Assembly (NCBI GenBank): GCA_024401395.1
Contig: JAKSLD010000016.1
Coordinates: 1-64,000 of the forward strand
DNA: 64,000 bases
Direction: 5' to 3'
Source of the DNA: Bacteroidales bacterium
GTDB taxonomy: Bacteria > Bacteroidota > Bacteroidia > Bacteroidales > Marinilabiliaceae
A program made the position numbers and the translations under genes. Shown here in pieces: positions 13,777-53,060 of this stretch. A model generated the notes under the pieces. The model was not told where the DNA came from and did no database searches. It saw nothing but the letters and a program-made list of their open reading frames with translations. How positions within the stretch are numbered: position 1 is the first letter of the stretch; the number at the start of each line of letters is the position of its first letter.

Positions 13777-14116
13777 AGATATTTATTTCAATTAGCAGAC
13801 AAAGTTAGTAAATAAATTGTAAACACTCGGATTGCTCACTGTATTTATATTCCGGCGAGTCACGGCAAATTCATAGAAAACTCACTTCAGGCACTATACA
13901 GAACAAATTATTCAGTCTTTTGTAGTCACTGTCTACACTATGTCTAGACCCTTGCTAGATACGGGGAAGTCCCTTGTTCATCGTAAATTTTTATTTTAAA
14001 TACTACGAAATACGACTACCCGACCATGGAACATCAAGGACAGGAACCCGGCACAACCCAGCGCAAAGGCAAATAAAAAACACCAGCGAACCTTATATTA
14101 TGAGACGAAAAAAAAG
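13777..14116. other. Intergenic region with dispersed repeat copy
   Basis: Between the DUF3467 gene start and the alaS terminator. It holds the DUF3467 promoter box at 13800-13807 and one copy of the plus-oriented intergenic repeat at 13961-14000. No ORF or RNA gene could be supported in the rest. Confidence 0.6.
13961..14000 (+). repeat. Intergenic TTGTTCATCG repeat, copy 1
   Basis: Contains GGGGAAGTCCCTT followed by core TTGTTCATCGTAAATTTTT and ATTTTAAA. The core matches seven other intergenic copies in the window, all on the plus strand. Here it lies between two minus-strand genes. Confidence 0.9.
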
Positions 14117-14145
14117 ACGCTGATTCCTTTTGTAGGAATCAGCGT
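14106..14145 (-). terminator. alaS terminator
   Basis: Perfect 12-bp arms ACGCTGATTCCT (14117-14128) and AGGAATCAGCGT (14134-14145) with a five-base loop. On the minus strand the hairpin is followed by a run of eight or more T. It ends transcription from alaS. Confidence 0.9.
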
Positions 14146-14167
14146 GCTTTGTATTGGACAGTATATA

Positions 14168-16801
14168 TTATTTCAACTTATCCTGGAAGTAGTATTTAGC
14201 TTCACGGAGAGCAGCATCCATACCTGCTGCGTTCTTACCACCTGCAGATGCGAAGAAAGGCTGACCGCCGCCACCACCCTGGATGTGCTTAGCTACGGCG
14301 CGGATAGCCTCCACTGCGTTGATATTCTTAGAAGCCACCACGCTATCAGAAGCGATTATCATAATCTGAGGCTTATCAGCGGCTACGCAACCGAGGACAC
14401 AAACGATATCCTCAGATTCGCCACGGAGCTGATATGCGAGATCCTTGAGGCGGTCTACGAACATAGGCTTAATTTCAGCTACGAGGAGCTTGATATTACC
14501 CACATTCTCGATTTTCTCACGGAGGGCAGCACGTTCGATACCGAGCATGCTATCCATCATATCTGCGCACTGCTGCTCGAGCTTCTGGTTATTAGCGATA
14601 AGAGACTCGATAGCCTTCTGGAGATTTGCAGGAGTAGTCTTCAAGCCCTCTGCCAGGGACTTAAGAGCGTTGTAGTTAGACACCATCAACTCCTCAGCCT
14701 TAGCGGCAGTAACAGCCTCGATACGGCGTACGCCAGCAGAAGAAGCAGACTCACCGATAATCTTGAACATACCGATGCGGCCTGTAGACTGAGTATGAGT
14801 ACCACCACAAAGCTCGATGCTAGAACCGAACTTGATTACACGTACTGTATCACCATACTTCTCACCGAAGAGAGCCATAGCTCCGAGAGCCTTAGCCTCG
14901 GCGATAGGTACATTACGATGCTCATCGAGAGCGATATCCTCACGAATCTTCTCATTTACGAGACGTTCAACCTCAGCGATCTCCTCATCAGTCACCTTAG
15001 CAAAGTGAGAGAAGTCGAAGCGGAGAGAATCAGGAGTTACATAAGAACCCTTCTGCTCCACGTGCTCACCGAGAACCTTACGGAGAGCCTCCTGCATGAG
15101 GTGAGTAGCCGAGTGGTTGTTAGCGATAAGCTGACGACGCTTAACATCCACTACAGCGTGGAACTGAGCTGATGGATTCTCAGGGAAACGATCAACGAGA
15201 TGGATAATAAGACCATTCTCCTTGATAGTTTGTATAACATTGACAGTCTCGTTAGCAGACTCGATATAACCAGTATCACCTACCTGACCACCCGACTCTC
15301 CGTAGAAAGGAGTAAGGTTGAATACTACCTGGAACTGCTCCTTATTCTTCACCTTAACCATACGGTAGCGCATGATCTTCACGTCGGCCTCAGTTGTATC
15401 ATATCCGACGAAATCCTCCTTATCATTCTCCTCGAGGACAGCCCAGTCGCCAGTCTCAATCTTACCAGCATCGCGAGCTCGGTTTTTCTGAGCCTGCATC
15501 TCTGCGTCAAATTCAGCGAGATTTACAGTAAGACCATTCTCACGGAGGATAAGTTCAGTAAGGTCGAGAGGGAAGCCGTAGGTATCATAAAGTTCGAAAG
15601 CGACCTTACCTGCGACCTCAGACTTCTTAGCAGCCTTAGTCTCGCCCATAATCTTATCGAGCATAGAGATACCCGTTGCGAGGGTACGAAGGAAAGAATC
15701 CTCCTCCTGCTTGATAACCTTAGAAACGAGATCCTTCTGAGCGATGAGTTCAGGATAAGCGACACCCATTGTTGCGTTAAGCACAGGGAGAATCTTATAG
15801 AGAGTAGCCTCACGCTGGCCGAGGAAAGTATAATAGTAACGAACAGCGCGGCGAAGGATACGACGGATTACGTAGCCAGCCTTGTTGTTAGATGGCTGCT
15901 GACCATCAGTAATAGAAAATGCGATAGTACGGATATGGTCGGCAACTACGCGCATAGCGATATCCACCTTCTCATCCTTGCCATAAGTATGACCAGTAAT
16001 CTTACCTATTTCGTCGAGGATAGGAGTAAATACGTCAGTATCGTAGTTAGAAGTCTTATGCTGAACGGCGCGAACGAGACGTTCGAAGCCCATACCTGTA
16101 TCTACGTGGTGATTTGGAAGGAGTTCAAGGCTATGGTCGGCCTTACGGTTGAACTGCATGAACACATTATTCCAGATCTCGATAACCTGAGGATTATCCT
16201 TATTTACAAGGTCACGGCCACTAACCTTCTTACGCTCCTCATCAGGGCGCATATCGAAATGGATTTCCGAGCAAGGGCCGCAAGGACCTGTATCGCCCAT
16301 TTCCCAGAAGTTATCATGCTTATTACCTTCGAGGATACGATCTTCAGCGATATGTTTCTTCCAGCAGTCGTATGCCTCCTGGTCGCGCTCGAGGCCCTCC
16401 TCCTTAGCGCCCTCGAAGATAGTCACATAGAGGCGATCCTTATCGAGTTTGATAACCTCGGTGAGATACTCCCAAGCAAAAGCGATAGCCTCCTCCTTGA
16501 AGTAGTCGCCGAAAGACCAGTTACCGAGCATCTCGAACATAGTGTGGTGGTATGTATCGTGACCTACTTCCTCGAGGTCATTATGCTTACCACTAACGCG
16601 GAGACACTTCTGAGAATCAGCCACGCGAGAATTTACGATAGGTGCGTTACCGAGGATTACATCCTTGAACTGATTCATACCAGCATTGGTGAACATCAAT
16701 GTTGGGTCGCCCTTAACTACCATTGGGGCTGAAGGAACAATCTTATGTCCCTTAGATGCGAAAAAATCCAGAAAGCTCTGGCGTACTTCTGCTGCAGTCA
16801 T
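14168..16801 (-). CDS. alaS: Alanyl-tRNA synthetase
   Basis: 877 residues, the normal length. The class II aminoacylation core is at the N-terminus (start [41 protein letters not shown]), followed by the editing domain with HSATH zinc ligands near 560 and CGGTH near 670, and the C-terminal DHHA1 domain with [14 protein letters not shown]. It charges tRNA-Ala and clears Ser and Gly mischarges. It starts 8 bases downstream of the M23 peptidase stop, so the two genes are likely co-transcribed from the promoter before the peptidase. A strong terminator follows. Confidence 0.98.
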
Positions 16802-16809
16802 ATAAAAAA

Positions 16810-17781
16810 TTAGTCGAACGTTCTGTTTGAATTTACTGATATTTCGATCATACGGTCGTACTCTTCAGGGGTAAGAGACTCCTGGAAGTAGTAGAACTGT
16901 GGGTTTACCTGTTTATCCTTAACCTTCACCTCATAGTGGAGGTGAGGAGCCGTACTAGTACCTGTTGATCCCACGTATCCGATGACATCGCCACGTTTTA
17001 CCTTCTGGCCTACGCGGCAGTGGAACTTAGACAAGTGAGCATAGAGGCTCTTATATCCGAAACCGTGGTCGATTTCGACGTGCATACCATATCCTGAGAA
17101 AGACGTCTTCACGGCAGACACCACGCCATCGCCTGTTGCGAATATTTCGGTACCAGTCGGTGCGGAGAAATCCATACCGTAGTGGAATTTTTTAGTCTTA
17201 TAGATAGGGTGAATACGCATACCCCAACCAGAAGCGGTACGGTTGAGGTCGCGGTTATTCATTGGCATGATAGCTGGGATGCACTGGATCATCTCCTTGT
17301 TACGTTTAGCGAGGGCGATGATTTCGTCGAAAGAAACGCTCTGGACGTAGAGTTGCTTAGCAGCGACATCGAGGCGTTTAGCGGTAGCGATAACCATATC
17401 CGAGTTAGTCATAGACTCGAGGTTTTCATAGCGGTTTACGCCACCGAAGCCAGCCTTACGAACAGAAGTCGGGATTGAATCAGCCTCATAGATAACGCGA
17501 TAGATATTTTCATCGCGCATATGGATATCATCGAGCACATCCTCGATCTGAGCGAGGCGGCGGTTCATAATTTCGTATTGAGAGAGAAGTTCCTGATTAT
17601 CACGCTTCAGCTGTTTCTCCTTTGGGGAATCTATGAAGTGGATATACAGCAAGAAAAATATACCTCCCGTCACCAAGCCAACGGCACAACGTTTCAACAC
17701 GAAATTTAAGTAGTACTTAAAGCCGTGTTCGATACGTTTATATGTCAGTGACTCTGGGTCGAATTTATACTTGTCTGCCAT
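16810..17781 (-). CDS. M23 family murein endopeptidase
   Basis: 323 residues. One membrane helix (about 33-50) anchors it in the inner membrane, followed by a coiled coil (52-90), and then a LytM/M23 domain with zinc residues H200 and D204 in [10 protein letters not shown] and the HLH motif at 280-282. The layout is that of Bacteroidetes M23 peptidases that cut peptidoglycan cross-links during growth or division. All metal ligands are present, so it should be active rather than an EnvC-like activator. It has its own well-formed promoter (17824-17855) and leads alaS by 8 bases. Confidence 0.92.
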
Positions 17782-17823
17782 TAATTTTCTGTTTTAGTAG
17801 TAGAGTTAGTCCTTAAAAACGTG

Positions 17824-17855
17824 CAAAAGTAAGAAACCTTTTGTATAAAAACAAA
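17824..17855 (-). promoter_or_regulatory. Bacteroidetes-type promoter of the M23-alaS unit
   Basis: On the minus strand TTTG (17855-17852) is followed after 20 bases by TACTTTTG (17831-17824), close to the Bacteroidetes consensus TTTG-N19-TAnnTTTG. The start codon is 43 bases downstream. Confidence 0.75.
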
Positions 17856-17868
17856 TTGACTGTCCACC

Positions 17869-17892
17869 AAGTGCCCTTTAAAGGGACATTTT
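17869..17892. terminator. Palindromic hairpin upstream of the M23 gene
   Basis: GTGCCCTTTAAAGGGACA is a near-perfect inverted repeat followed by six T on the plus strand. No plus-strand gene ends here; on the minus strand it lies downstream of the aminotransferase gene and may still stop transcription or act as an operator. Confidence 0.4.
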
Positions 17893-17940
17893 TTCTTATC
17901 AAGATAATAACATTTATACAAATGGGGAACCAGGCTCTGT

Positions 17941-17984
17941 ATTAAGGGAGCATTAAGGGAGTGTTAAGAGAGCATTAAGAGAGA
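17941..17984. repeat. Four 11-bp direct repeats
   Basis: Units ATTAAGGGAGC, ATTAAGGGAGT, GTTAAGAGAGC and ATTAAGAGAGA follow one another without gaps. The 11-bp period places each unit on the same face of the helix, like OmpR/PhoB-type operators. It lies 160-200 bases upstream of the M23 start and 26 bases after the aminotransferase stop. Confidence 0.8.
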
Positions 17985-18009
17985 CTATAGAGAACAAAAT
18001 AATAAGAAA

Positions 18010-18903
18010 TCAATAGACCAGGCGCTGTTTCAGGTAGACAGCCAAACGTGCCAGACGGTCGTTCTTGAAACGGCGGTCGGCAGCACCTACAACCAGGTGG
18101 ATACCAAATTCATTAGAAGCGACGAAACACTCAGTAGATTTAGAAAACAAATCAGCGGTAAGACCATCTATATAAACGACATGGAGGCCCTGCTGAACAG
18201 CTTCGAACTCGATCATATCCTTCATAGGGTCAAGAAGAGCGCCATATTTAGGGCTAGTGGTATAGATATCATCATCAATGAGGATATAGACATTACCGAG
18301 AGTAGACTGCACTACCCTATTCTGAGAATCGCGAAGAAGAGCGCCGTGGTATTTCAGTTCATTATTAGAGACATAACGCTCAGCCATATAATGAATCAGC
18401 GACGGGCGAGGGATGCAATTATACGGAGAATCAGGGAGACGCTCACGGTCGTAGTCGACCAAGAAAACAGGTTCGGTATTGATTTCGAAGACATTACGGT
18501 CCAGTCGGCACTGCTGCATAGAATAATGAGCCCTATCATCGTCCATCCACACAGAGAGAATCACCTGAGAATGACCGGGATAGTGGTTTTTAGCTGCTAG
18601 AAGTTCGATCTGACGATAAAGCACATCCCACTGAGGGAGAGCATCTTCGGGCATAGAGAGGAGAGAAATGCACTGCTGAATGACGATACACTGTTCGCGC
18701 CAAAGATATGGGACAGAGCCCTTGAGAGAGAGAGTCAGTCGGAAACCGTAGCCATTAGCGAAGAAAGAGTTATTGACGCCCAACAACTTAGTATCAGGCT
18801 TATAGAACACACCATCGCAACAAATAACATAGAGCCAGCTCCGACGAGTATCCTCGACAGGAGCCAGCCCTTGTGCTATACGTATTGAATCTTCGATATT
18901 CAT
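18010..18903 (-). CDS. PLP-dependent class IV aminotransferase-like protein
   Basis: 297 residues, soluble. The C-terminal half has the class IV layout: LKYHGALLRD with the candidate PLP lysine, then VVQSTLGNVYILIDDDIYTTS (usual E..N.F.v....l.TP) and GLHVVYIDGLTADLFSKSTECFVASNEFGI. The match is weaker than in true branched-chain aminotransferases or aminodeoxychorismate lyase, so the substrate is unknown. It follows fabD by 8 bases in the same transcript. The gene may have drifted in function, because the usual LPGITR motif reads LLDPMKDM here. Confidence 0.6.
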   Translation of the reverse strand: MNIEDSIRIAQGLAPVEDTRRSWLYVICCDGVFYKPDTKLLGVNNSFFANGYGFRLTLSLKGSVPYLWREQCIVIQQCISLLSMPEDALPQWDVLYRQIELLAAKNHYPGHSQVILSVWMDDDRAHYSMQQCRLDRNVFEINTEPVFLVDYDRERLPDSPYNCIPRPSLIHYMAERYVSNNELKYHGALLRDSQNRVVQSTLGNVYILIDDDIYTTSPKYGALLDPMKDMIEFEAVQQGLHVVYIDGLTADLFSKSTECFVASNEFGIHLVVGAADRRFKNDRLARLAVYLKQRLVY

Positions 18904-18911
18904 TGAGCCGA

Positions 18912-19796
18912 TTAGGCCAAAGAAGAGACGCCAGCAGTAGCTACATCGCGGCTAGTCTTCTTGATGAGACCTTGGAGAACTGCGCCAGGGCCTACCTCAG
19001 TAAACGAATCGACGCCATCCTCGATCATCTGGCGAACAGTCTGAGTCCAGCGAACAGACGCTGTAAGCTGAGCCACGAGATTCTTCTTAATCTCCTCAGG
19101 ATCAGTAACAGGCTTAGCCACAACATTCTGGTAAACAGGGCAAACAGGAGCTGAGAACTTAGTAGCCTCGATAGCAGCAGCCAAAGCTACACGAGCAGGC
19201 TCCATGAAAGGAGAGTGGAAACCGCCGCTAACAGAGAGTTTGAGAGCACGTTTAGCGCCCTTCTCAGTAAGTTTAGCGCAAGCCTCGTCGATACCAGCCT
19301 CAGAACCAGAGATTACGAGCTGACCAGGGCAGTTGTAGTTAGCAGGAACTACATCCTTGATACCAGCGCAAACCTCCTCAACCACTGCATCCTCGAGACC
19401 GATGATAGCAGCCATAGTAGACTTAGCCATTTCGCAAGCCTTCTGCATAGCCTGGGCACGCTGAGAAACGAGCTTCACGCCATCCTCGAAAGACATAGCG
19501 CCAGCGGCTACGAGAGCAGAGAACTCACCGAGAGAGTGACCTGCGACCATATCAGGCTTAAAATCAGCGCCCATAACCTTAGCGAGGATAACTGAATGGA
19601 GGAAGATAGCTGGCTGAGTAACCTTAGTCTGCTTAAGTTCCTCATCTGTTCCAGCGAACATAATATCTGTGATCTTGAAGCCAAGAATCTCATTAGCTTT
19701 ATCAAAAAGGGCCTTAGCCTCTGCTGAGTTCTCGTAGAGGTCCTTACCCATACCTACGAACTGTGCACCCTGACCAGGGAAAACGTATGCTTTCAT
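18912..19796 (-). CDS. fabD: Malonyl-CoA:ACP transacylase
   Basis: 294 residues from MKAYVFPGQG; a longer in-frame start upstream would break this conserved N-terminus. GHSLGE carries the nucleophile Ser88 and GGFHSPFM the catalytic His194. It loads malonyl groups on acyl carrier protein for fatty acid synthesis. A TATATTTG box lies 40-47 bases upstream on the minus strand. The class IV aminotransferase gene follows by 8 bases. No other fab genes are adjacent; the ketosynthase is at 61.3 kb. Confidence 0.97.
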   Translation of the reverse strand: MKAYVFPGQGAQFVGMGKDLYENSAEAKALFDKANEILGFKITDIMFAGTDEELKQTKVTQPAIFLHSVILAKVMGADFKPDMVAGHSLGEFSALVAAGAMSFEDGVKLVSQRAQAMQKACEMAKSTMAAIIGLEDAVVEEVCAGIKDVVPANYNCPGQLVISGSEAGIDEACAKLTEKGAKRALKLSVSGGFHSPFMEPARVALAAAIEATKFSAPVCPVYQNVVAKPVTDPEEIKKNLVAQLTASVRWTQTVRQMIEDGVDSFTEVGPGAVLQGLIKKTSRDVATAGVSSLA

Positions 19797-19835
19797 TTTT
19801 AATATAGTATTTGTTTTCTTAATCGTTTTATGTTG

Positions 19836-19843
19836 CAAATATA
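19836..19843 (-). promoter_or_regulatory. -7 promoter box of fabD
   Basis: Minus-strand TATATTTG, 40 bases before the fabD ATG, matches TAnnTTTG. The -33 box is not clear. Confidence 0.5.
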
Positions 19844-19863
19844 ATCAAATTCACATTACCATG

Positions 19864-24703: not shown

Positions 24704-24712
24704 AACTAAGTG

Positions 24713-24720: not shown

Positions 24721-24728
24721 AGCAAAAA

Positions 24729-26139: not shown

Positions 26140-26164
26140 CAAAGCTAACCATAATAGTGTAAAA

Positions 26165-28440: not shown

Positions 28441-28504
28441 TTGTTATGTGATTAATTCATTTAATGTGATTAACCTCGGTACGAAGGTAATTACAATTTC
28501 ATAT

Positions 28505-28540
28505 AATTCCAATTCCTAATTCCTAGTACCTAATTCCTAA
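28505..28540. repeat. AATTCCT heptad block
   Basis: Irregular repeats of AATTCC(T) (AATTCC, AATTCCT, AATTCCT, a break, AATTCCT). The same heptad recurs in tandem at 42294-42312, again upstream of an intergenic repeat copy. Confidence 0.7.
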
Positions 28541-28671
28541 ATACGGAAATAGAGGGTGACTAGAAAAATCACTGTTTTCGGAAACTTTCTCAATTACTCT
28601 TAAAAAGTGGGTATGGAGGTACTATGAGAGTGCTTTGTGGTTCCTGCGTTGTTCCTCTGTAGTCCCTTTGT

Positions 28672-28715
28672 AGTATAAGGGAAGTCCCTTGTTCATCGTA
28701 AATTTTTATTTTAAA
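28672..28715 (+). repeat. Intergenic TTGTTCATCG repeat, copy 2
   Basis: AGTATAAGGGAAGTCCC followed by TTGTTCATCGTAAATTTTT and ATTTTAAA. Nearly identical to copies 1, 4 and 8. It lies between two divergent genes. Confidence 0.9.
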
Positions 28716-32074: not shown

Positions 32075-33025
32075 TTATATTTCCTGAATCAGAGATTTAC
32101 CAGACTCTCCATTCTCCCATTGCCAAGATTCATGGAACCTTAGTTTCCCATTCTCCAGGAATTCTGGAGAAGAGTCACAGTGACCCTTTTTGAACTCGTT
32201 ATGGACATTGACGTGCTGATAGTCGAAATGCAAGCAACCATTCTCGTCCATATTGCCGAATAAGATTCCCTTAAACACCATACCTCCGGAATACTCCGCC
32301 CAGACAATATTATCTTTCTGGTGATAACTGAAGACAGTCTGACCAGACACCTCACCAGAGTCAGAGTTCTCAATAGCGGTGAAATATCTATCATCTACAG
32401 AGAAATGGGATTCAGACTTATTGAAAAGATTATAACCTAGAGAATATGCCTTAGCCAGATGAGGGTCGCTATTAAGCGCACGGCTTTCAGTAGATTTTGA
32501 CATGCCATCAAGTACTACGAACTTCTTATCCTTCACTCTATTGAAAAGGCGATCGCCCAGCATAACCTTCTTCATGGCATATATCAAGTCGTAGCACTCC
32601 AACTCTGCCTGCGAATTACCAGCTATACACAACACCAATGACTTTTCCAGCAACTTCATATGCAAAGAGTTCAACTTCTTCTCTTTTGTTCCGTACGCGA
32701 ACCCATAACGCCATACTCTATCAAACCAACCTTTCAATTTAGCTGGCACATCGGTCCAAAATACAGGATATATGAAGACAATAGCATCACTAGAGTTGAT
32801 CTTTCTCTGCTCTTCTAAAATATCTTCTGCAATGTCATCGTTATTGATATAATTGGAGTCGCGTAGATATTCAGACTCTATCATATCCGATTTGAAATTC
32901 ATCTTATACAAATCAGATATTATATACTCATTTCCTGACTCAACAATACCCTTAATAAAAGAATCTCTAACTAAAGACGTGAAGGAATCTTCTGATGGGT
33001 GGCAATAAACTACAAATACTTTCAT
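32075..33025 (-). CDS. Flavodoxin-fold NAD(P)H oxidoreductase fused to a C-terminal domain
   Basis: 316 residues from MKVFVVYCHP. Residues 1 to about 195 form a Flavodoxin_2 (NQO1/MdaB-like) domain: YCHPSEDSF for FMN phosphate binding and FIYPVFWTDVPAKLKGWFDRV. Residues from about 205 form a strand-rich domain (ENSDSGEVSGQTVFSYHQ, IVWAEYSGG, FDYQHVN, LRFHESWQW) that I know as a separate small bacterial family of unknown role. The fusion suggests that the second domain binds a substrate or product of the flavoprotein; that is inference. A minus-strand TACATTTG box (33057-33050) precedes the start. It converges with pflA. Confidence 0.8.
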   Translation of the reverse strand: MKVFVVYCHPSEDSFTSLVRDSFIKGIVESGNEYIISDLYKMNFKSDMIESEYLRDSNYINNDDIAEDILEEQRKINSSDAIVFIYPVFWTDVPAKLKGWFDRVWRYGFAYGTKEKKLNSLHMKLLEKSLVLCIAGNSQAELECYDLIYAMKKVMLGDRLFNRVKDKKFVVLDGMSKSTESRALNSDPHLAKAYSLGYNLFNKSESHFSVDDRYFTAIENSDSGEVSGQTVFSYHQKDNIVWAEYSGGMVFKGILFGNMDENGCLHFDYQHVNVHNEFKKGHCDSSPEFLENGKLRFHESWQWENGESGKSLIQEI

Positions 33026-33295
33026 TTTATTTATGGATTGAGGAATACACAAATGTAATACTAATTTTTAACAATCCTACCATTTATAGAATACAGCAAC
33101 AATAATAAACCTTAAAAACACACAATTTATGACCATAGCAACTAGTTTTCTACTACTTTTGCACCGCTTTTCGCCATAAAAACGAAGAGACTCTTATTTA
33201 AGCGCTAGTATACAGACATTTGCGATGACAATAACAAACAACAAACTAATTAAAGAGTTCGACGCATAGGTGTAATTACTCTTGCCGCCCTTCTG

Positions 33296-33409
33296 ATGGC
33301 AGAATTCAAATATGAGAAGCTAGGGATACAATACACGCTAAAAGGAGTAGAAGCGCCAAGCAAAGAGAGAGAAGAAAAAGCAAAGAAGATATTAGGAATA
33401 GAACAATAG
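33296..33409 (+). pseudogene. C-terminal remnant of a pflA-like gene
   Basis: A 37-codon frame starting MAEFKYEKLGIQYTLKGV and ending at TAG is a clear match to the last 35 residues of the intact pflA (MAEFKYEQLGIEYTLKGV). The DNA before it no longer matches pflA; in the same frame it reads GVITLAALLMA, which resembles a signal peptide, and a stop lies a few codons earlier. It seems to be a deletion product of a second, more diverged pflA, not a recent duplicate: synonymous and amino acid changes are many. Confidence 0.85.
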
Positions 33410-33462
33410 AGAAAGACCTATAGAATACCTACGGAGGTACTATGAGAGTCCTATGAGCATAG

Positions 33463-33482
33463 TTGTTCATCGTAAATTTTTA
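33463..33482 (+). repeat. Intergenic TTGTTCATCG repeat, copy 3
   Basis: Core TTGTTCATCGTAAATTTTTA only; the AAGGGAAGTCCC part is missing. A different upstream segment (33430-33449) matches sequence upstream of copy 2, so the two copies are related outside the core. Confidence 0.85.
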
Positions 33483-42312: not shown

Positions 42313-42392
42313 GGGGGTATTACCAAATACTCTTACGGAGGGACGTAGTGGTAGGTTGTGTATAGTTTGAGGACAGTTTGATGGTCCTTTGT

Positions 42393-42432
42393 AGTATAAG
42401 GGAAGTCCCTTGTTCATCGTAAATTTTTAAAT
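42393..42432 (+). repeat. Intergenic TTGTTCATCG repeat, copy 4
   Basis: AGTATAAGGGAAGTCCC and TTGTTCATCGTAAATTTTT as in copies 2 and 8. It lies between the divergent thermonuclease and trmH genes. Confidence 0.9.
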
Positions 42433-42484
42433 TAAGCGTCAAGGCATAGTTACACGAGGGGAAAGATAGCTAGCAAAAAAACAC

Positions 42485-42492
42485 TATCTTTG
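42485..42492 (+). promoter_or_regulatory. -7 promoter box of trmH-menF
   Basis: TATCTTTG, 18 bases before the trmH ATG, fits TAnnTTTG. Confidence 0.55.
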
Positions 42493-42510
42493 TCGGGCTA
42501 AAGATAAGAT

Positions 42511-43191: not shown

Positions 43192-44144
43192 TGGACTATC
43201 AGCAGACAGCAGATAGAATAGACAGCCTGACCGGCTCGTTTGCAGTAATGCGAGAACCAGACACAGAAGAAGTACTATGGTTCACAGGCGAAAACCGCAA
43301 ACAGTTCGTCATGCGCCCATACTCCGAGGGGGCAGTTGGCCGCAAGCCATACAAAGCAACTACAGAAGCAGAATACAGAGAATCATTTGCAGAAGTAAAG
43401 AAAGCCCTAGTTTCCGGCACGGTAGACAAAGTAGTGCTATCCCGCGTCATTATGCACCAAGGCTTTGCGAAGAACACCCTTGGGCAGCTATTTGCGCACG
43501 CCTGCAAGATATACCCACACCAGATGATATACCTATCCGTAGACGGAGACAGGATCTGGCTAGGCTGCACACCAGAGCTACTACTATCCTACGATTCCAA
43601 AGAAGGCGTGGGAAAGACTATGGCCCTTGCCGGGACACGACCAGCGTGCGGCTCAGACGTAGTATGGGACGAAAAGAACATACGCGAGCAAGCCGTAGTG
43701 AGCAGATGGATAGGCGAGCAACTCATCAAAGAAGGGATAGACGTCAAGATGAGCGAAGCATACACCACCCAGGCAGGCGGGCTAGAGCACCTACGCACCG
43801 ACATAGAGATGCAGATAGCAGACGGCACGGTCGCGGAGAAAGTATTGAATATACTCCACCCTACCCCAGCCGTATGCGGTCAGCCGCGAGCCAAGGCGAT
43901 GGATATAATCTCCAAGGTAGAGAAGCACGACAGAGAATTCTATTCAGGCTTCATAGGCTACCATGACGAAAACGGCATGCGCATATACGTCAACCTTCGC
44001 TGCGCTGCGCTTGACCTCAAGACAGACAAAGCCTACATATTCGTAGGAGGAGGCATTATGCCAGACTCACAATGCGACTCAGAATATCAGGAGACAGAAT
44101 ATAAGGCAACTACTATTAAGAGAGTGCTAAAGAGGGACAATTAA
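43191..44144 (+). CDS. menF: Isochorismate synthase
   Basis: 317 residues from the ATG that overlaps the trmH stop; a longer frame within trmH is a chance extension. Chorismate-binding enzyme core: VDKVVLSRV, LSVDGDRIWLGCTPELLL, ALAGTRPA, HLRTDIEM, LHPTPAVCGQPRAKA and YVNLRCAAL, as in MenF/EntC. It makes isochorismate for menaquinone. At 317 residues it is at the short end, as is common in Bacteroidetes. The next pathway enzyme, menD, lies 15 kb away. The last 4 bases overlap the end of the convergent hypothetical gene. Confidence 0.9.
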   Translation: MDYQQTADRIDSLTGSFAVMREPDTEEVLWFTGENRKQFVMRPYSEGAVGRKPYKATTEAEYRESFAEVKKALVSGTVDKVVLSRVIMHQGFAKNTLGQLFAHACKIYPHQMIYLSVDGDRIWLGCTPELLLSYDSKEGVGKTMALAGTRPACGSDVVWDEKNIREQAVVSRWIGEQLIKEGIDVKMSEAYTTQAGGLEHLRTDIEMQIADGTVAEKVLNILHPTPAVCGQPRAKAMDIISKVEKHDREFYSGFIGYHDENGMRIYVNLRCAALDLKTDKAYIFVGGGIMPDSQCDSEYQETEYKATTIKRVLKRDN

Positions 44145-44668
44145 GAAGCCAGTTGCAGTAACGCATCACGATATTTCTGGGGGGAGTCGAATTTGACCCA
44201 GAAGAAAGTCGTTCCATTTTTGAACAGCCTCATATCGTGGGCATTAGAGCTAATATTACTGCGCTGTGCAGAAGGCAATATATAGTGCACCGATTGAGGA
44301 GAGCGACCAGCGGCAGATTTCTCATTGGACAACACCTGCAACTTATTGCCATGCTTACGGATGAGGCTATAGTAATACGACACAGCGGCGCGATAGGCGC
44401 CCAGTTTATGGTGCTTACGAGCATATCTCCTCCAGTGGCGCAGGCGGTTCCAGCGAGACATATCATCCTTTGCCAAGGCATTAGCATCGGCAAACATATC
44501 ACGCACAGCACGTTGCTTATCTGTAACGTGAACCATGATGATTTTGAAATTATTTCCAGGATACCTTTTAATAAAGGTGCTACGACCATCGATGCGAGCG
44601 GTAGAATCATTTCGAGCGACTCTGCGGGCGTGTGTTATGTGTTTTTTCAGAATGGTTACTGATGCCAT
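44141..44668 (-). CDS. Bacteroidales hypothetical protein
   Basis: 175 residues from MASVTILKKH; the longer start at 44695 is less likely. The N-terminal half is strongly basic (HARRVARND, RYPGNNFKIIMVHVTDKQRAVRDMF, RWNRLRHWRRYARKHHKLGAYRAAVSYYY), and I recall similar short proteins in other Bacteroidales, without known function. High Arg/His content suggests nucleic acid contact (inference). It converges with menF with a 4-base overlap. Confidence 0.65.
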   Translation of the reverse strand: MASVTILKKHITHARRVARNDSTARIDGRSTFIKRYPGNNFKIIMVHVTDKQRAVRDMFADANALAKDDMSRWNRLRHWRRYARKHHKLGAYRAAVSYYYSLIRKHGNKLQVLSNEKSAAGRSPQSVHYILPSAQRSNISSNAHDMRLFKNGTTFFWVKFDSPQKYRDALLQLAS

Positions 44669-45014
44669 GTGTGAATGATTTGTTGGATTAAACATTTACC
44701 TTGTACGCGGTGTTTCATGAAAGGTTACATTATTTGCGGTAAAATTCAGAATTTTTAGAGTCGATACGGGACGACAGTGAAGGCAAGGCAATATACAAGG
44801 AAGAGCCTTTGCAGGTAGCTGGGAGTATAATGCTAGTAAGAAGCAAGTCAGTTGTTCATCGTAAATTTTTTATTTGGGAATGAATAAGAGTGAGTAAAAT
44901 CAAAGTCAAAGAACATTTATTTCCTTAACCCTTGATATAATGGAAATATGTTATTAAACTTGCATTTGAACATAAATATATTGCACGAATAAAAGATAAT
45001 CATACTAGTATACT
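44669..45014. other. Intergenic region with repeat copy
   Basis: Divergent spacer between the hypothetical and GLPGLI genes. It holds repeat copy 5 (44833-44878) and AT-rich sequence before the GLPGLI gene. No other feature can be supported. Confidence 0.6.
44833..44878 (+). repeat. Intergenic TTGTTCATCG repeat, copy 5
   Basis: CTAGTAAGAAGCAAGTC then GTTGTTCATCGTAAATTTTTT and ATTTGGG. With copy 6 it forms a subfamily that has CTAGTAAGArGCAAGTC in place of the AAGGGAAGTCCC segment. Confidence 0.9.
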
Positions 45015-45851: not shown

Positions 45852-45989
45852 CTTGTCACGGCGAGAGCAAAGATCAATCAATCATACCATTATAATAAAT
45901 TCATACAACATGAATTTCCATCCGTATTATAATCTCATACCATACATATTATTAGAATTATGTATGATTCATTCACAAAAGCAATAGTC

Positions 45990-48590
45990 ATGAGAGGATT
46001 ACTATTCATAATTGTCATGCTGAGTATTATCTCGGCAAACGCTCAGAAGATTACGCTATCTGGCAAAGTAACAGAGCAATCTTCTGACAAGGCAATGGCA
46101 AACGTGGTAGTAACAGTGAGGCCTAATGGGCAAAATAAAATAATAAAGTTCGCCACGACAAAGGCAGACGGAAGCTACACCCTCATGCTTAACGCTATGC
46201 CAGAGGGGAACCATGTACTGCATTTCTCCATGATAGGTTATGCCGTAAAGACTATACCATTGACAAGCGGACAGACGATATACAATGTCGCGATGGAAGA
46301 GAAAGCGACTGAACTGAAAGGCGTCAAGATAAAGGCACCGAGTATTCGGCAGAAGGGAGATACCATATCATACAGCGTTGCAAGTTTTGCAGATGCAAAT
46401 GACAAGAGCCTAGAGGATGTATTGAAGAAGATGCCTGGAGTAGAAGTAGAAGAGAGTGGCAAAATAAAATATAACGGCAAAGAAATCAACAAATTCTATA
46501 TAGAGGGGCATGATATGTTGGGAGGGCGTTATTCTCTAGCAACCAACAATATACACCAAGAGGATGTAGGCACAGTGGAGGTCATGACAAACCATCAGCC
46601 AATAAAGGCATTGGAAGACATGGTCTTCTCTGAAAATCCGGCTATTAACATCAAACTGAAAGAAACTGCGAAAGGGCGCTGGGCTGGCACTGCAAAAATA
46701 GGGGCAGGTGCTGAAGATAAAGACATAGTGTGGAATGGAGAGTTGGCATTGATGCGATTTGCGAAGAAGGTACAGTCGCTCAATACTCTCAAGAGTAACA
46801 ACACTGGAACAGATATTACACGCGAGATAACCCTAAAATTTGATGACTTTGATGGAGGCTCTCTTGGCAACACCTATTCGTTGCAAAACTACATAAGTGC
46901 CACACCCGACAGACTTACTGAGATTTCAGATTCCCGAGTACGAGATAACCAAACACACACAATTACGACAAATGACCTATGGGCAATAAGCAACCGAACA
47001 GACGTTACTACACAAATTACTTACATAAAAGACAAACTTACCTCATCATCGATAAGCCGTACGCAATATTTTCTGAACGACACGACAATAATAATCGATG
47101 ACTATGAGAAAGCATTACAAAAACGAAACGAGGCGTCAATCAATTTAACGCTGACATCAAATGGAGATTCGGCATACATAACCAATAAGCTTTCTACAGA
47201 ACTCAAGTGGAATGACGTCACGATGGATATTGTCCAAAATGGACAACCACTATATCAAGTTGCCGAAGTGCCTAAGTATCAGATTTCGGATAATTTTGAG
47301 ATACTACTAAGAAAAGGTCAAAAAGCTTATTCCTTTGATACATACAATGTTTACATGAGGAATCCTCACACACTATCGACAAGCGATGCAATACAGAATG
47401 TACGTTCCTCTGCCTATTTCAATCATACCCACACTTCGCTAGGCTTTTATCTCAATCCATTTACTGTTTCCATGGAAGTTGGGATTCAGATATTAAACCG
47501 CTTGATGGAGAGCGATTTGACAGGGGCGATAGATACAAGTTTGCACAAGAACGACATAAAAATGGCATTTGTACGGACATACGCTACGCCCAAAGCAGAA
47601 TACAATAATGGAGGATGGCATATCAAATTCAAGATACCATTAACATATACGCCATACGTATTCAACGACAATCTATCAAGAGAAAAAGACAGAGCATACA
47701 AAACACAGATTTCCCCTAGTCTGCACGTTAGCTATGATTTAAACAATCACCTAAAATGTGGATTATCTGCAAGAGTTGCGCAACGAGACATAAACGAGAA
47801 AAATTTCTACCATGGGATTATAATGCAAGACCATAGAAATATAAACATAGGATTTGTAGATTATACAGAAGACAAGAGTAAAATTGCAAGTTTCAACGTA
47901 GACTACAAACGACCACTTCTGACAATATTCATGAATGGGTACATAAGCAAAAGCTGGACCGACATGCATCTGACAGCCAAACGAGACTTCATAGGCGACT
48001 ATGTAGTAAACTCATATTACTCAGACAAAAGCAAATCGGAATTCACAATGGCTGGAGGAGCGATAAGCAAAGGACTAGGATTCATGAGAGGTCTTATCAG
48101 AACGAGTTTTGACTACATAAAGAGTAACGGCACAATGCGGCAAGGAGAGACGACATCAGACTACCAATCAGACAACTACACATGGGGAGCGAAATTGAAT
48201 GGTCGGCCACTACTATGGTTCAATTTCACGTACGAGATAAAAATGAATAAGAGTGTAATGACGATGAAAGAGGTTGCGATGGAGACGAAGACTACCGACC
48301 AGTCGCAACACCTTACTATCAACTTTTTCCCGACCGAACGATGGCAAATAAAACTTATTGGAGACTACTTCCACAACCAAGTAGCTGAGGGACAGCACAA
48401 AAACCTATATCTAGCAGATGCTTCGACAAGTTACAATCTGAAAAACGGAATAGAATTCACACTTACTGCTCTAAACCTTTTTGACCAGCATACATACGGA
48501 TATACGACTGAAGGAAGTTTGACACGCATGAGCAAGGAGTATAAGCTCAGGGCTAGAACTATTATTGGGTCGATGTTCTTTCATTTTTAG
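45990..48590 (+). CDS. TonB-receptor-like outer-membrane protein, GLPGLI partner
   Basis: 866 residues from MRGLLFIIVM; the longer start at 45960 would spoil the signal peptide. Signal peptide to SANAQ, carboxypeptidase-regulatory-like Ig domain (ITLSGKVTEQSSDKAMANVVVTV, about 22-105), plug-like region with DVLKKMPGVEVEESGKIKYNGKEIN, and a large barrel. It ends TIIGSMFFHF with the C-terminal aromatic typical of barrels. It pairs with the GLPGLI gene upstream. Ligand unknown. Confidence 0.9.
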   Translation: MRGLLFIIVMLSIISANAQKITLSGKVTEQSSDKAMANVVVTVRPNGQNKIIKFATTKADGSYTLMLNAMPEGNHVLHFSMIGYAVKTIPLTSGQTIYNVAMEEKATELKGVKIKAPSIRQKGDTISYSVASFADANDKSLEDVLKKMPGVEVEESGKIKYNGKEINKFYIEGHDMLGGRYSLATNNIHQEDVGTVEVMTNHQPIKALEDMVFSENPAINIKLKETAKGRWAGTAKIGAGAEDKDIVWNGELALMRFAKKVQSLNTLKSNNTGTDITREITLKFDDFDGGSLGNTYSLQNYISATPDRLTEISDSRVRDNQTHTITTNDLWAISNRTDVTTQITYIKDKLTSSSISRTQYFLNDTTIIIDDYEKALQKRNEASINLTLTSNGDSAYITNKLSTELKWNDVTMDIVQNGQPLYQVAEVPKYQISDNFEILLRKGQKAYSFDTYNVYMRNPHTLSTSDAIQNVRSSAYFNHTHTSLGFYLNPFTVSMEVGIQILNRLMESDLTGAIDTSLHKNDIKMAFVRTYATPKAEYNNGGWHIKFKIPLTYTPYVFNDNLSREKDRAYKTQISPSLHVSYDLNNHLKCGLSARVAQRDINEKNFYHGIIMQDHRNINIGFVDYTEDKSKIASFNVDYKRPLLTIFMNGYISKSWTDMHLTAKRDFIGDYVVNSYYSDKSKSEFTMAGGAISKGLGFMRGLIRTSFDYIKSNGTMRQGETTSDYQSDNYTWGAKLNGRPLLWFNFTYEIKMNKSVMTMKEVAMETKTTDQSQHLTINFFPTERWQIKLIGDYFHNQVAEGQHKNLYLADASTSYNLKNGIEFTLTALNLFDQHTYGYTTEGSLTRMSKEYKLRARTIIGSMFFHF

Positions 48591-48758
48591 CATTTGAAGA
48601 CAAAGGACTATACTACAATTTAGTGAAGAATCAACTTGAGTTAGGAGATAAATACTAGAAACAATATGATATTTTTAGATAGAATCAACACCAGTAGATA
48701 CTTTTAACAATAATTGGTATGATTCACACATACTTCCTGTTAAGACAATGGCATGCTA

Positions 48759-48800
48759 CTAGTAAGAGGCAAGTCCGTTGTTCATCGTAAATTTTTTAGG
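48759..48800 (+). repeat. Intergenic TTGTTCATCG repeat, copy 6
   Basis: CTAGTAAGAGGCAAGTCC then GTTGTTCATCGTAAATTTTTT. Closest to copy 5. It directly precedes a bidirectional terminator. Confidence 0.9.
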
Positions 48801-48811
48801 GAATGGAAGGA

Positions 48812-48847
48812 AAAGAGGCTGTGTCGGAAATTTGACACAGCCTCTTT
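48812..48847. terminator. Bidirectional terminator
   Basis: Perfect arms AAAGAGGCTGTGTC and GACACAGCCTCTTT with an 8-base loop between two convergent genes; T-rich on both sides. Confidence 0.85.
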
Positions 48848-48933
48848 ATCTGAGTATTTCAATTTATTTGTCGGGCTATTGGCTGTAAAAGATTACTACT
48901 TACCATAAGCCATTACAAGCTATGACAGTAGCA

Positions 48934-51816
48934 TTAGTTACGGCCGAATCCGAAATTAACGCCGAATGAGAACATAGGCTTCATTTTATCGGTGTAAACG
49001 AACTGTCGCTTATTAGAAGAGAACAGATTGTGACCCTCCACGAAGAATTCAGCGCACTCCTTCAGACGATAAGCTGCGCGGAGATTCATAGTGAAGAAGC
49101 CATCAACCACCTCCTGTCCGAAAGTAGAATCGATGTTACGCTTACCAGCGAAATAGCCCATTGTAGAGAACGAAAGCTTATCCATTGGGCGGAAGATAAA
49201 GCCTACAGATCCATATACAGAAGGAGTTGCCTTATGCTTGAAATTATCTTTACGATTCTCCTTATGGTCGCCAGGATTATCTACATCATCAGCGCCGATA
49301 TAATACTCCTGCTTAATGTCGTTGCTATAACGCACACCATACTTGAGAGCATAATAAAGTCCGAGAGGGCGCTCGATACCTGGAGCAGTCTCATTGCTCT
49401 GATACATAGCTAGAAGCTGCTGTTCGAAGGCAGCCTTATCAGCATCACTCATTTTCTTGTACTTATCAGCAAAAGCAGAAATAGGAGTATAGCCAAGGCA
49501 CGCATCCAACACGTCCTGAGGATTGCCCCCCTGCATAGCAGTACCGACTACACGGCCAACGATATCCTGGATAAGGCCAGGATTAGACTGACCATCGCCA
49601 GCCAATTTAACTTGGCAATCAGCAAACTGCTTAACAAACATATCAGTCTGCTCATATACATAATAGTCATCAATCTTAGTCTGCTGAGCATTAACATTAA
49701 ACTTAGCGATAAGTTTAGGAGAGATGATCCAGTCCACGTTCAAGCCCAAACCCTTTTGATATACTGTAAAAGGCATACTACCATAACGTACAAAAGCCTT
49801 AGTACCAAGAACATCCGCCAAAGCAGAAGAAGCGGTACCCAACAGCGCTGGAAGTTGTGACGGGTCGGTCTGCAATTTTTCCATCACCTGCCCCAAGAGA
49901 CCTTTCAAGTCCTTTTCAGCCAAAGTAAGCATAGCAGAGTGAGCCTTGAGAACGCCATAATCAGAGCTAATAGAATAGAACGACTCAAAATCGACGAGCA
50001 AGTTTCTAGTCGGCTTAATACGGTATCCGAACTCGAAATTATCTATCTTAACCAGAGGAGACTCCTCATTACCAAGGAACTGGATATAATTAGGCACGCC
50101 AGAATTATGCCAGTTATAGTTAGACGAAGAGTGGAAGAATACGGTAGAACGGCGAGCGTGACCATAATTTACACGTACGAAATTCTTGTCATTAATCTGG
50201 TAAGAAGCGACGAACTGCCAAGAAGGATTCAAGTCATCCGGAATACTAGTCTTATCGATACGGCCAGCACCCACGAGACGCAAGCCATCGCGCTTATAGT
50301 CAAGTCTCAAAGACGCCTCAAAGTCGTCATTCTCAGCAGAAATATTACCCTCGCTACGGTAGCCCAAGAAACCAGAAGTCTCGACGGCGCCCTTACCATC
50401 GCCATAGTCGATAAACTCAGGTTTATGGTCCTCGATATACATCTTCTTATAACCCACGGCAGGCTTCAGAGCCAAGTCGCCCAAATGAAAAGTATACTCA
50501 GCAGAGACCTGAGCCAGTTTCTGATACATCTGGAAGCCCGGAGTACCCACGCAGAAGTGGTTACAGCCACCATAGTAGTTAGCCAGAAGCTTAAGATCCT
50601 TAATATCAGCATCGAGAGCCACGTAAGCGGTAGAGAACTCACGGACACGATAGCCCACGTTATCCTGACCCACCTGAGTGTTGAGGTTAGACGAATACTG
50701 ATAACCACCAGTAAGATTCAGACGGATACCATTAGCAGGAGTGAACGTCAGATAGCCATTGACGCCATCATTACGACGCGACATATAAGGATCCTTATAT
50801 TGAGTAGACGGGTCCTCGATGCCAGTAAGCGACAACACCACGCCTTCATCATTAGCGGCAGAAACATTATAATAATACTTCAAGTCATCAATATTAATAT
50901 AAGCGCCACCACTGACATCCTTGATAGTTCCATTCTGGAGGCCCAATCCCAATTGAGTTTTAGAGACTGGTATAGCGCGACCACCCTCCACGCCAGAGCC
51001 AGGATAGCAGATATACTTATTAGCAGACGGGATGAGATACAACTCACCATTATCACGCCAACGACGATTGACATTATAGGTAAGACCAGAGGCAAACTTA
51101 GAGTTAAACCTATGACGGAGAGCAATCTCACCCTGGACATTCTTGTCTCCGGCGCGTAGATTACCCGAGGCAACATATCGGCTCTCGTCAGGCTTAGTCG
51201 TGATGATATTGATAACACCCTGAACAGCATTAGGACCGTAGAGAGCCGAAGTAGCGCCACGTACGACCTCGAGACGTTCAATATCCTCGATAGAAATAGG
51301 GAGATTATCGAGGTTTGGGGTACCGATAGCATAACTATGAACAACGCGGCCGTCGATCATTACGAGGATATTCATACTCTCGGCATACAACAAGAAGTTG
51401 TTATCAGGGATATTATTCAGGCCACGCATCTGAACGTCATAAACGCCATTGAGCTTTTCAGCGACGATCATACCAGGCACGAGACGCAGAGCCTCCTCAA
51501 TGGTAGACACTCCATAAGTACGAAGTTCGTCATGAGTAATAACCGTACTAGACAAAGGAGACGTAAAACTACTCTCCTCCTCCTTCGAGGCAGAAGAGAC
51601 ATTCTTGTTCATAATGAGAGCGAACAGCTCGTCGACACTTTTAACTCCGAGAGTCTCGACAGCTTCCATAAGCTGTTCAAGAGGTAAATCAGACAACTCC
51701 TCGGTTGTCATACTTAGAATCTGCTCTCGTGACAATTTCCCGTATTCCTGTGCTTGGGTGCCAAAAGACAATGCGCAAAAGAGAGCGATAGTGTAAAAAA
51801 GTCTTTTCATAGACAT
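48934..51816 (-). CDS. TonB-dependent receptor
   Basis: 960 residues; MKRLFY two codons on is an alternative start. Signal peptide to FGTQAQ. An N-terminal helical stretch (EQILSMTTEELSDLPLEQLMEAVETLGV) precedes the plug (about 75-205), with TVITHDELRTYGVSTIEEALRLVPGM, VMIDGRVVHS and RLEVVRGATSALYGPNAVQGVINI. The barrel follows and ends FGVNFGFGR. Plug motifs are of the classical vitamin/siderophore type rather than SusC. No SusD is adjacent. It has a well-formed promoter (51857-51886). Ligand unknown; the AraC gene diverges from it. Confidence 0.93.
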   Translation of the reverse strand: MSMKRLFYTIALFCALSFGTQAQEYGKLSREQILSMTTEELSDLPLEQLMEAVETLGVKSVDELFALIMNKNVSSASKEEESSFTSPLSSTVITHDELRTYGVSTIEEALRLVPGMIVAEKLNGVYDVQMRGLNNIPDNNFLLYAESMNILVMIDGRVVHSYAIGTPNLDNLPISIEDIERLEVVRGATSALYGPNAVQGVINIITTKPDESRYVASGNLRAGDKNVQGEIALRHRFNSKFASGLTYNVNRRWRDNGELYLIPSANKYICYPGSGVEGGRAIPVSKTQLGLGLQNGTIKDVSGGAYINIDDLKYYYNVSAANDEGVVLSLTGIEDPSTQYKDPYMSRRNDGVNGYLTFTPANGIRLNLTGGYQYSSNLNTQVGQDNVGYRVREFSTAYVALDADIKDLKLLANYYGGCNHFCVGTPGFQMYQKLAQVSAEYTFHLGDLALKPAVGYKKMYIEDHKPEFIDYGDGKGAVETSGFLGYRSEGNISAENDDFEASLRLDYKRDGLRLVGAGRIDKTSIPDDLNPSWQFVASYQINDKNFVRVNYGHARRSTVFFHSSSNYNWHNSGVPNYIQFLGNEESPLVKIDNFEFGYRIKPTRNLLVDFESFYSISSDYGVLKAHSAMLTLAEKDLKGLLGQVMEKLQTDPSQLPALLGTASSALADVLGTKAFVRYGSMPFTVYQKGLGLNVDWIISPKLIAKFNVNAQQTKIDDYYVYEQTDMFVKQFADCQVKLAGDGQSNPGLIQDIVGRVVGTAMQGGNPQDVLDACLGYTPISAFADKYKKMSDADKAAFEQQLLAMYQSNETAPGIERPLGLYYALKYGVRYSNDIKQEYYIGADDVDNPGDHKENRKDNFKHKATPSVYGSVGFIFRPMDKLSFSTMGYFAGKRNIDSTFGQEVVDGFFTMNLRAAYRLKECAEFFVEGHNLFSSNKRQFVYTDKMKPMFSFGVNFGFGRN

Positions 51817-51856
51817 CTATTTTAAGGTATATTCCAGTTGGTTTTTTTATCAAAGG

Positions 51857-51886
51857 CAAAGATAGAATAAAAAAATTAACAACAAA
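51857..51886 (-). promoter_or_regulatory. Bacteroidetes-type promoter of the TonB-dependent receptor gene
   Basis: Minus-strand TTTG (51886-51883), 18 bases, TATCTTTG (51864-51857), 40 bases before the ATG. Near the consensus. Confidence 0.7.
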
Positions 51887-52006
51887 TAACACAAACTACG
51901 CATTTTTTGGAGAAAACAAGAACAATACAACAAAAATATCCATTTGTAACTTTTATTCTTGGAGAAGAAAAGAAAACACGTAACTTTACGTCCAAATTAC
52001 ACAGAT

Positions 52007-52909
52007 ATGAACGAAAGAAACGTCATAACACTCGAGAATATAATTCATCAGGTTCTGAACGAATCTGTGAACTACAAGAATCAGGTGATGATATCACATA
52101 TCAAAGACCTGAGTCTATTCAAGACGCCATGTCATCTAAAGGCGATCAGCATACTAGTCTGTCTTAATGGAGAATTAGAGTGTTCGATAAACCTACATAC
52201 ATATAAATTAGGCAAGAACTCAGTATTGATTATTTTCCCAGAGAATATCATACAGCTCAAGAGCACCAAGGATTTGGAAGCCTTTGCTATAATACTCTCA
52301 TCAGAATTTGTACGCAAGCTCTCCTTAGACCCGTTATCAGTTTCGCATCTTTTGGCCTGGGAAGTAACCAGGAAAGCAAAGCTAGAGTTACCCGAGAAAG
52401 AAATAGACCATCTGTCGCACTATCTGGCGATATTAGAAAAGACCATGAAATCGCCGTTCAACGAGACGAGCGACAATCTGATGATGTATATAAGTTCAGC
52501 CTTTATGGCCGAGATAATACAGCTACACCATCACTACCAGCCTGCCATAGCAGAAGATATCAACGGATCGAAGAGAAAGCTGAATATCCTTGACAAATTT
52601 GTGAAACTAGTCGGGATATATCACTCACAAGAGCGAGAACTGAAGTTCTATGCAGACAAGATGTGCATAACCCCCAAATATCTAGCAGACACTGTGAAGA
52701 ATATAAGCGGCAAGAAAGCTACGGAATGGATCTGCGACTTTGTCATAATGGAGGCGCAATCACTGTTAAGATATTCAGGGTTGACAGTTCACGAAATATC
52801 CGAGAAGTTGAATTTCTCGTCGCAGTCTGCATTCGGCAAATACTTCAAGTACCAGGTAGGAGTCTCGCCATCAGAGTATCAGGGAAGAGGTCAAGACGAA
52901 GAAAAGTAG
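52007..52909 (+). CDS. AraC family transcriptional regulator
   Basis: 300 residues from MNERNVITLENI; upstream in-frame starts would lie within the promoter-like TAACTTTA box (51981-51988). The C-terminal 100 residues form an AraC HTH pair: LKFYADKMCITPKYLADTVKNISGK (helix-turn-helix 1) and SLLRYSGLTVHEISEKLNFSSQSAFGKYFKYQVGVSPSEY (helix-turn-helix 2). The N-terminal domain is a cupin-like sensor. It diverges from the TonB-dependent receptor gene across about 190 bases, so it may control that gene (inference). Confidence 0.92.
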   Translation: MNERNVITLENIIHQVLNESVNYKNQVMISHIKDLSLFKTPCHLKAISILVCLNGELECSINLHTYKLGKNSVLIIFPENIIQLKSTKDLEAFAIILSSEFVRKLSLDPLSVSHLLAWEVTRKAKLELPEKEIDHLSHYLAILEKTMKSPFNETSDNLMMYISSAFMAEIIQLHHHYQPAIAEDINGSKRKLNILDKFVKLVGIYHSQERELKFYADKMCITPKYLADTVKNISGKKATEWICDFVIMEAQSLLRYSGLTVHEISEKLNFSSQSAFGKYFKYQVGVSPSEYQGRGQDEEK

Positions 52910-52953
52910 CTTAGAAGATAGTCCAGCGTACGATGATCGTATGAGACGATACC

Positions 52954-52981
52954 CTGTTCATCGTAATTTTTTTATATTTTG
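52954..52981 (+). repeat. Intergenic TTGTTCATCG repeat, copy 7 (diverged)
   Basis: CTGTTCATCGTAATTTTTTT; one base short in the AAA part and lacking the upstream inverted repeat. Confidence 0.8.
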
Positions 52982-53015
52982 TAGGCTATGTGTACACTCT
53001 GCCTATACCCTGTCT

Positions 53016-53060
53016 AGTATAAGGGAAGTCCCTTGTTCATCGTAAATTTTTTATTTGGGG
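53016..53060 (+). repeat. Intergenic TTGTTCATCG repeat, copy 8
   Basis: AGTATAAGGGAAGTCCC, TTGTTCATCGTAAATTTTT, then TATTTGGGG. Nearly identical to copies 2 and 4 upstream, and to copy 5 in its downstream TTATTTGGG end. Confidence 0.9.

Follow-up and report, generated by a model that had tools for sequence, protein, structure and literature searches.

What kind of element is a short sequence that recurs eight times between the genes of a single stretch of DNA, always on the same strand? The stretch (positions 1–64,000 of contig JAKSLD010000016.1, assembly GCA_024401395.1; hereafter the window) belongs to an uncultured gut bacterium of the Bacteroidales (genome G000; 3.30 Mb, 47 contigs). Our analysis suggests that this bacterium carries an undescribed two-part repeat system that is spreading in its genome. 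The repeated core ends a periodic array with which it is in phase, the element is linked to a gene, it is dispersed both as a unit with this gene and alone, and it is indifferent to strand. We consider it probable that this is a dispersed two-component repeat system, in which array–core elements are one component and a gene present in many copies, encoding a small basic protein, is the other.

Structure and distribution of the array–core element

The core (TTGTTCATCGTAAATTTTT) matched the plus strand of the window eight times with up to three mismatches. Seven matches were exact and one (at 52954) had two mismatches. The chance expectation was 0.03 matches, and none of 100 shuffles reached eight. 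As described in the original prediction, all eight copies were located between open reading frames (ORFs).

The element as a whole extends beyond the core, which forms its 3′ end and is preceded by 11-bp units in the same phase. Within the 99 bp upstream of the cores, the identity at lag 11 was 0.396, compared with 0.24–0.32 at lags that were not multiples of 11. The signal was also present at multiples of 11, was strongest in the nearest 44–55 bp and reached approximately background by 80–110 bp. For 76 cores, the lag-11 identity in the 66 bp upstream was 0.449 versus 0.269 (standard deviation 0.0066) in dinucleotide shuffles, with a maximum of 0.288 among 200 shuffle sets. A strong lag-11 window was found upstream of 45 of the 76 cores versus 13 of 114 other intergenic stretches. 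A period scan detected 33 arrays at 11 bp versus 0 to 12 at each other period from 4 to 24. The array–core element contains some 3 to 8 imperfect units, followed by the in-phase fixed 22-bp core; solo elements end at a T run. Tandem cores kept the same step: of 19 spacings shorter than 260 bp, 17 were multiples of 11 (77 in ten cases, 88 in four, 66 in two and 253 in one). The exceptions were 89 and, for the window elements at 52907 and 52973, 79.

Wrapped at 11 bp in the phase of the core, the units rarely had G at positions 1 and 2, and had C/G at position 7, T/A at 8, A/G at 9 and G/C at 10. Two upstream sequences had been noted before the cores, and both were present: AAGGGAAGTCCCTT or a near form at 13974, 28689, 42410 and 53033, and CTAGTAAGArGCAAGTC at 44852 and 48778. 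They are not fixed modules, however, but variants of the last array unit, and AAGGGAAGTCCCTT is not constant. The dominant unit differed per locus (e.g. CTCGGTCTACA, CCTATACTAGA and GACTTTGTGGG), as local slippage would give, and 11-bp arrays without this core also occurred. Both observations would fit plain minisatellites that spread through slippage and gene conversion and need no dedicated protein. We consider this explanation improbable, since it accounts neither for the fixed core and the unit logo shared between loci nor for the gene link and the existence of another core tied to its own subfamily of genes (see below).

The folding of array plus core was near chance (76 copies; mean z −0.70 sense, −0.49 antisense), which speaks against the small-RNA family that had been proposed. 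More broadly, a transcript-level element, i.e. a terminator or a small-RNA family ending in a T run, would be in line with the AATTTTTTT tail, with a core that could form the 3′ arm of a hairpin in some copies (at 52954 and at L032 in genome G010, by eye) and with core-complementary 6-mers upstream of 20% of copies versus 8% in shuffles. In the window copy concerned (52907..52972), the upstream part may pair with the core, as judged by eye. Given the folding values and the copies that also lie in divergent intergenic regions, we regard a transcript-level element as highly unlikely. A structured RNA or terminator was not supported as the general role, with no Rfam match in the window at the gathering threshold and folding near chance. 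A hairpin of the form ggctgtgtc...gacacagcc was repeated after several cores with CCTATACTAGA-like arrays (L037, L057 and L066).

A scan of the whole genome on both strands (up to two mismatches) found 162 cores, 91 forward and 71 reverse (binomial p 0.135), and a reversed control pattern found none. The predicted family, conserved in its core and variable upstream of it, was thus recovered across the genome. The reported absence of minus-strand copies was true of the window, but not of the contig, which has such copies 5.7 kb past the window end (69722 and 69799). Because both strands carry cores genome-wide and minus copies occur on the same contig, the one-strandedness is local to the window.

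A detailed set of 706,957 bases (the window and 33 other stretches, approximately one fifth of the genome), scanned with a slightly wider core pattern, contained 77 cores, 46 on the plus and 31 on the minus strand. The sign of the local GC skew was matched by 39 and opposed by 38 of them, and the majority coding strand was matched by 42 and opposed by 35. These counts did not support a replication-oriented motif, as originally suggested, and this reading was rejected. The cores were located between ORFs in 63 cases and inside crude ORF calls in six, while eight were not classed. In the orientation of the core, the flanking genes of the 63 classed cores were ++ in 23, −− in 19, −+ in 13 and +− in 8 cases.

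Among 15 genomes of the genus, the core was found in G000 (158 copies), G008 (44), G011 (23) and G010 (10), and in none of the other 11. Outside the genus, single matches occurred in 2 of 46 genomes. Among named records, the exact 21-base core was present in three assemblies, all from metagenomes and all of uncultured Bacteroidales/Bacteroidia. Judging by their isolate names, two came from horse faeces; the third is isolate S22M_St_71. Viral contigs contained no match to the exact 21-base core, and five looser matches there had no 11-bp arrays. Proteins of the family described below were found neither in viral contigs or plasmids (query L165) nor in phages (query L225). Carriage by phages was rejected on these grounds.

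The linked gene family and its dispersal

The window encodes one member of the associated protein family, P0001, a small, basic protein of 184 residues. With P0001 as the query, strong relatives were found in G000, G008, G010 and G011 and in none of nine other genus genomes; G005 and G006 had weak relatives (E 1e-4 or worse). The genus genomes with the core are exactly the four with strong relatives. A family profile (A2) matched 27 times in G000, 20 in G010, 16 in G008, 12 in G006, 11 in G005, 10 in G011, three in G002, two in G003 and once in G012, but in none of 56 other genomes of the taxonomic family. By our own reading, the 27 matches in G000 represent 25 genes and two short fragments.

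The link between core and gene was assessed for 24 of the 25 G000 genes (one had no ORF by the signature used), on the upstream side only and within 330 bp, with 493 ORFs of the detailed set of stretches, including at least two family genes, as the control. A core in the same direction preceded 16 of 24 family genes versus 31 of 493 ORFs (Fisher p 7e-13), and a core in the opposite direction preceded two family genes, the window gene among them, versus 26 ORFs. The core was 104–114 bp from the gene in 10 of the 16 same-direction cases, mostly approximately 105 bp before the start codon. The core TTCATCGTAA was found before MGRVTIRKK-type genes, and TTGCTCGCAA or TTGCTCGTAA before others.

In 9 of the 16 family-gene copies, the core was followed by TAnnTTTG, the consensus of the Bacteroidota-type −7 box. 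Moreover, at an orthologous place in G000 and G008 (L051/L088), the core ahead of the same gene was kept although the array had diverged. These observations might indicate a regulon, with the family proteins acting as transcription factors, the elements serving as operators or as parts of promoters, and each solo copy marking a gene under such control. We consider this unlikely, since the box followed only 2 of the 77 cores overall, versus 5.1% in shuffles, and since the orientation of cores to genes is mixed, as given above. A promoter as the general role of the solo copies was unsupported by the same box count.

Comparison of gene copies indicates that a unit from the array to the stop codon is copied to unrelated places. 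Such pairs were 95.5% identical over 672 bp (L164 in G010 and L165 in G000), 92.9% over 658 bp (L268/L269 in G000), 95.0% over 717 bp (L273/L275 in G000) and 85.6% over 680 bp (L165/L281 in G000). At unrelated places, the similarity began on the array side of the core and ended at the stop codon, with none reported beyond; for L176/L180 in G010, the agreement started at the core and stopped just past the stop codon. We also inspected 15 stretches from relatives (L135–L149), chosen for lying next to the counterpart of a gene that neighbours a G000 core. None of the 15 had the core with up to four mismatches (the best had five), and L144 contained a TTGCTCG-kind variant. When 68 core sites were compared with 172 loci of other genomes, two sites had a match on both flanks; the matching loci numbered three, of which two overlap. 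These two sites suggest a gain of approximately 50–70 bp in G000 and were too diverged for a target duplication to be read.

The weak relatives had a core of a different sequence. G005 and G006 each had eight copies of AAAGTACGTGTTTCG, and the other 13 genus genomes had none; the motif was located 64–109 bp before the start of the distant family members. In these two sister species, the core also stands alone. Among 12 of the 16 sites that were examined, five preceded family genes (L182, L184, L188, L189 and L190), six were elsewhere and one (L191) adjoined a family gene facing the other way. The solo site L193 had five near-identical 11-bp units in front. A lag test on 12 sites (11 examined sites and L168, a one-letter variant, with L193, the strongest array, left out) gave a lag-11 identity of 0.338 versus 0.279 (p 0.001).

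Outside the genus, the profile matched G133 twice and G392 once in a sample of 393 genomes of the order. Both G133 genes had 11-bp arrays directly upstream (lag-11 0.68 and 0.71, p 0.001), and a pattern derived from their unit led to a third array; the stretch read behind this one contained no family gene. The homologue in G392 (L224) was preceded by 7-bp TGTCAAT-like repeats in place of 11-bp units. In a sample of 395 genomes of the class, the profile of short homologues described below found other proteins in 10. Near some homologues, 11-bp periodic stretches were also seen ahead of neighbouring ORFs that served as controls (loci L242, L245, L198 and L223). A phylum-wide association of arrays with homologues was not accepted; it was suggestive in G133 and not clearly above controls overall.

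P0001 had no significant match in Pfam (best E 0.14), NCBIfam or PHROGs, and none of the G000 family proteins put to Pfam matched DUF6266 (PF19781) above the cut-off. A profile built from three short Bacteroidales homologues matched the G000 family (best E 2.9e-8) as well as the distant relatives L249 and L250, the two that were tested against Pfam, which were both DUF6266. Through this profile, the family protein appears distantly linked to DUF6266. An AlphaFold2 model (149 aa, 32 family sequences) had a mean predicted local distance difference test score (pLDDT) of 79.9 and a predicted template modelling score of 0.70, after a pLDDT of 67.0 for the first model. In the predicted fold, a pair of helices at the N terminus is followed by a beta hairpin and three further helices, with a last helix at the C terminus. 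Basic, aromatic or small residues make up most of the invariant positions. Inspection by eye revealed no motif of a nuclease or recombinase, and defence-system models gave no match for four proteins.

Features of the window

The positions of the elements, a core-less array and the family gene are given in Table 1. The element at 33416..33481 is flanked by what remains of a gene with a longer counterpart in G010 and by a terminator-like hairpin conserved in G010. At 33240–33440, only the end of the longer G010 coding stretch is kept, with most of the rest gone; by eye, this coding stretch resembles a pyruvate formate-lyase activating enzyme. TAATTCC 7-bp repeats at 28504–28540 are located ahead of the 28612 array, and AATTCCTAATT-like stretches likewise precede arrays at other copies. 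A 52-bp tandem repeat in two copies (53505–53610) has a 90% similar stretch in G010 (C56:45913-46547), which adjoins a family gene with inner stops. Most DNA matches to related genomes were of lower identity than those at 32359–33302 (98% to G008) and 55001–56000 (99% to G010), and the unusually high values may reflect recent exchange.

Table 1. Array–core elements and associated features in the window.
Feature	Position	Strand	Remarks
Array–core element	13927..13992	+	Four 11-bp units by phase 13927–13970; core CCCTTGTTCATCGTAAATTTTT 13971–13992
Core-less 11-bp array	17929..18009	+	Unit resembles TTAAGGGAGCG
Array–core element	28612..28707	+	11-bp array 28612–28685 detected by period scan; core 28686–28707
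Array–core element, weak array	33416..33481	+	Core 33460–33481
Array–core element	42363..42428	+	Core 42407–42428; array by phase only
Associated-family gene (P0001)	44141..44695	-	184 aa; inner ATG start would give 175 aa
Array–core element	44805..44870	+	Core 44849–44870; array by phase only; upstream of the family gene, on the opposite strand
Array–core element between convergent genes	48731..48796	+	Core 48775–48796; array by phase only
Array–core element, weakest copy	52907..52972	+	Core 52951–52972, 2 mismatches
Second tandem copy	52973..53051	+	Array 52973–53029; core 53030–53051

A probable two-component repeat system compared with known systems

Under the two-component reading, each helical turn of the array would be bound by one protomer of the family protein. 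Anchored by the core, which would overlap the promoter region of the gene, the protein would control its own gene at the array–core element. Solo elements would be the non-autonomous offspring of gene units. A wider form of this reading, which we put forward tentatively, is a new selfish two-component system of Bacteroidota. Its arrays, offering one binding unit per helical turn, would serve for the assembly of DUF6266-like proteins, and every lineage would evolve a core and an array unit of its own, to be spread in the genome both with the gene and without it.

Several results weigh against these readings. In G000, 6 of the 24 family genes had no recognised core within 330 bp, in addition to the two with a core in the opposite direction, and an upstream lag-11 signal was found in only a minority of them (6 of 24, p 0.003; 7 of 24, p 0.013). 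G011 has 23 cores, yet the TTCATCG core was upstream of none of the six family copies inspected (of 10). The pairing of core types with protein subfamilies may be explicable by common descent alone. As to copying, the near-identical L270 and L271 (93.9% over 822 bp) were alike past the stop codon, and a clean empty site with a target duplication was not seen in the two both-flank comparisons, which were diverged. Lag 15 of the second core (0.322) came near its lag 11. Upstream of the homologues, a lag-11 signal was present in 7 of 29 (p 0.0125 or less) versus 8 of 86 neighbouring ORFs, and a lag-8 signal in 6 of 29. With overlaps removed, arrays outside the genus accompanied 5 of 29 homologues versus 4 of 80 controls at a threshold of 0.5 (p 0.054), 4 of 29 versus 4 of 80 at 0.55 (p 0.21) and 2 of 29 versus 2 of 80 at 0.6 (p 0.29). 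Foldseek gave no significant match of the predicted fold to solved structures (best E 0.4; 1.2 for the first model).

The closest parallel among known systems is formed by repetitive extragenic palindromic (REP) elements with RAYT (TnpA-REP) proteins (PMC2817692, PMC8266576, PMC3733652). Shared features are the many short intergenic repeats per genome on both strands, a small protein gene with the repeat beside it and a lineage-specific repeat sequence. In contrast to REP elements, the repeats described here have 11-bp direct units instead of a constant palindrome or hairpin, and the protein is encoded by 25 gene copies and had no Y1_Tnp (HUH) match in Pfam, other Y1/RAYT genes in the genome not having been searched for. 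Two defining features of REP/RAYT, the constant palindrome and the Y1 match, are thus missing, and the system would act like REP/RAYT but with unrelated parts. The original view that the repeats are REP-like in manner and not decaying transposon ends was supported.

Direct repeats of one helical turn are also found in arrays of the ParR/parC type, in which a protein filament assembles on 10–11 bp direct repeats. The elements described here differ in occupying approximately 160 scattered chromosomal places rather than one centromere, and in the protein involved. In Beggiatoaceae, intergenic regions have been reported to contain numerous sets of short direct repeats with the sequence TAACTGA (PMC4679880). 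Their unit differs in being, as far as described, an exact 7 bp. We know of no core or linked gene family for those repeats. The genomes of bacteria also show a weak 11-bp A/T periodicity (PMC516772, PMC4132750), with a similar period near the helical repeat. That periodicity is a statistical dinucleotide signal, whereas the arrays described here are discrete, with alike units ending in a core. The literature listings searched described neither this core nor 11-bp arrays that end in a core, and none of the papers in them named DUF6266.

The strict 11-bp step, kept despite locus-specific letters, is a physical clue that corresponds to one helical turn. If the two-component reading is true, it would provide a testable role for a protein family without a known function, and the array–core elements would be a second, independent kind of gene-linked dispersed bacterial repeat beside REP/RAYT.

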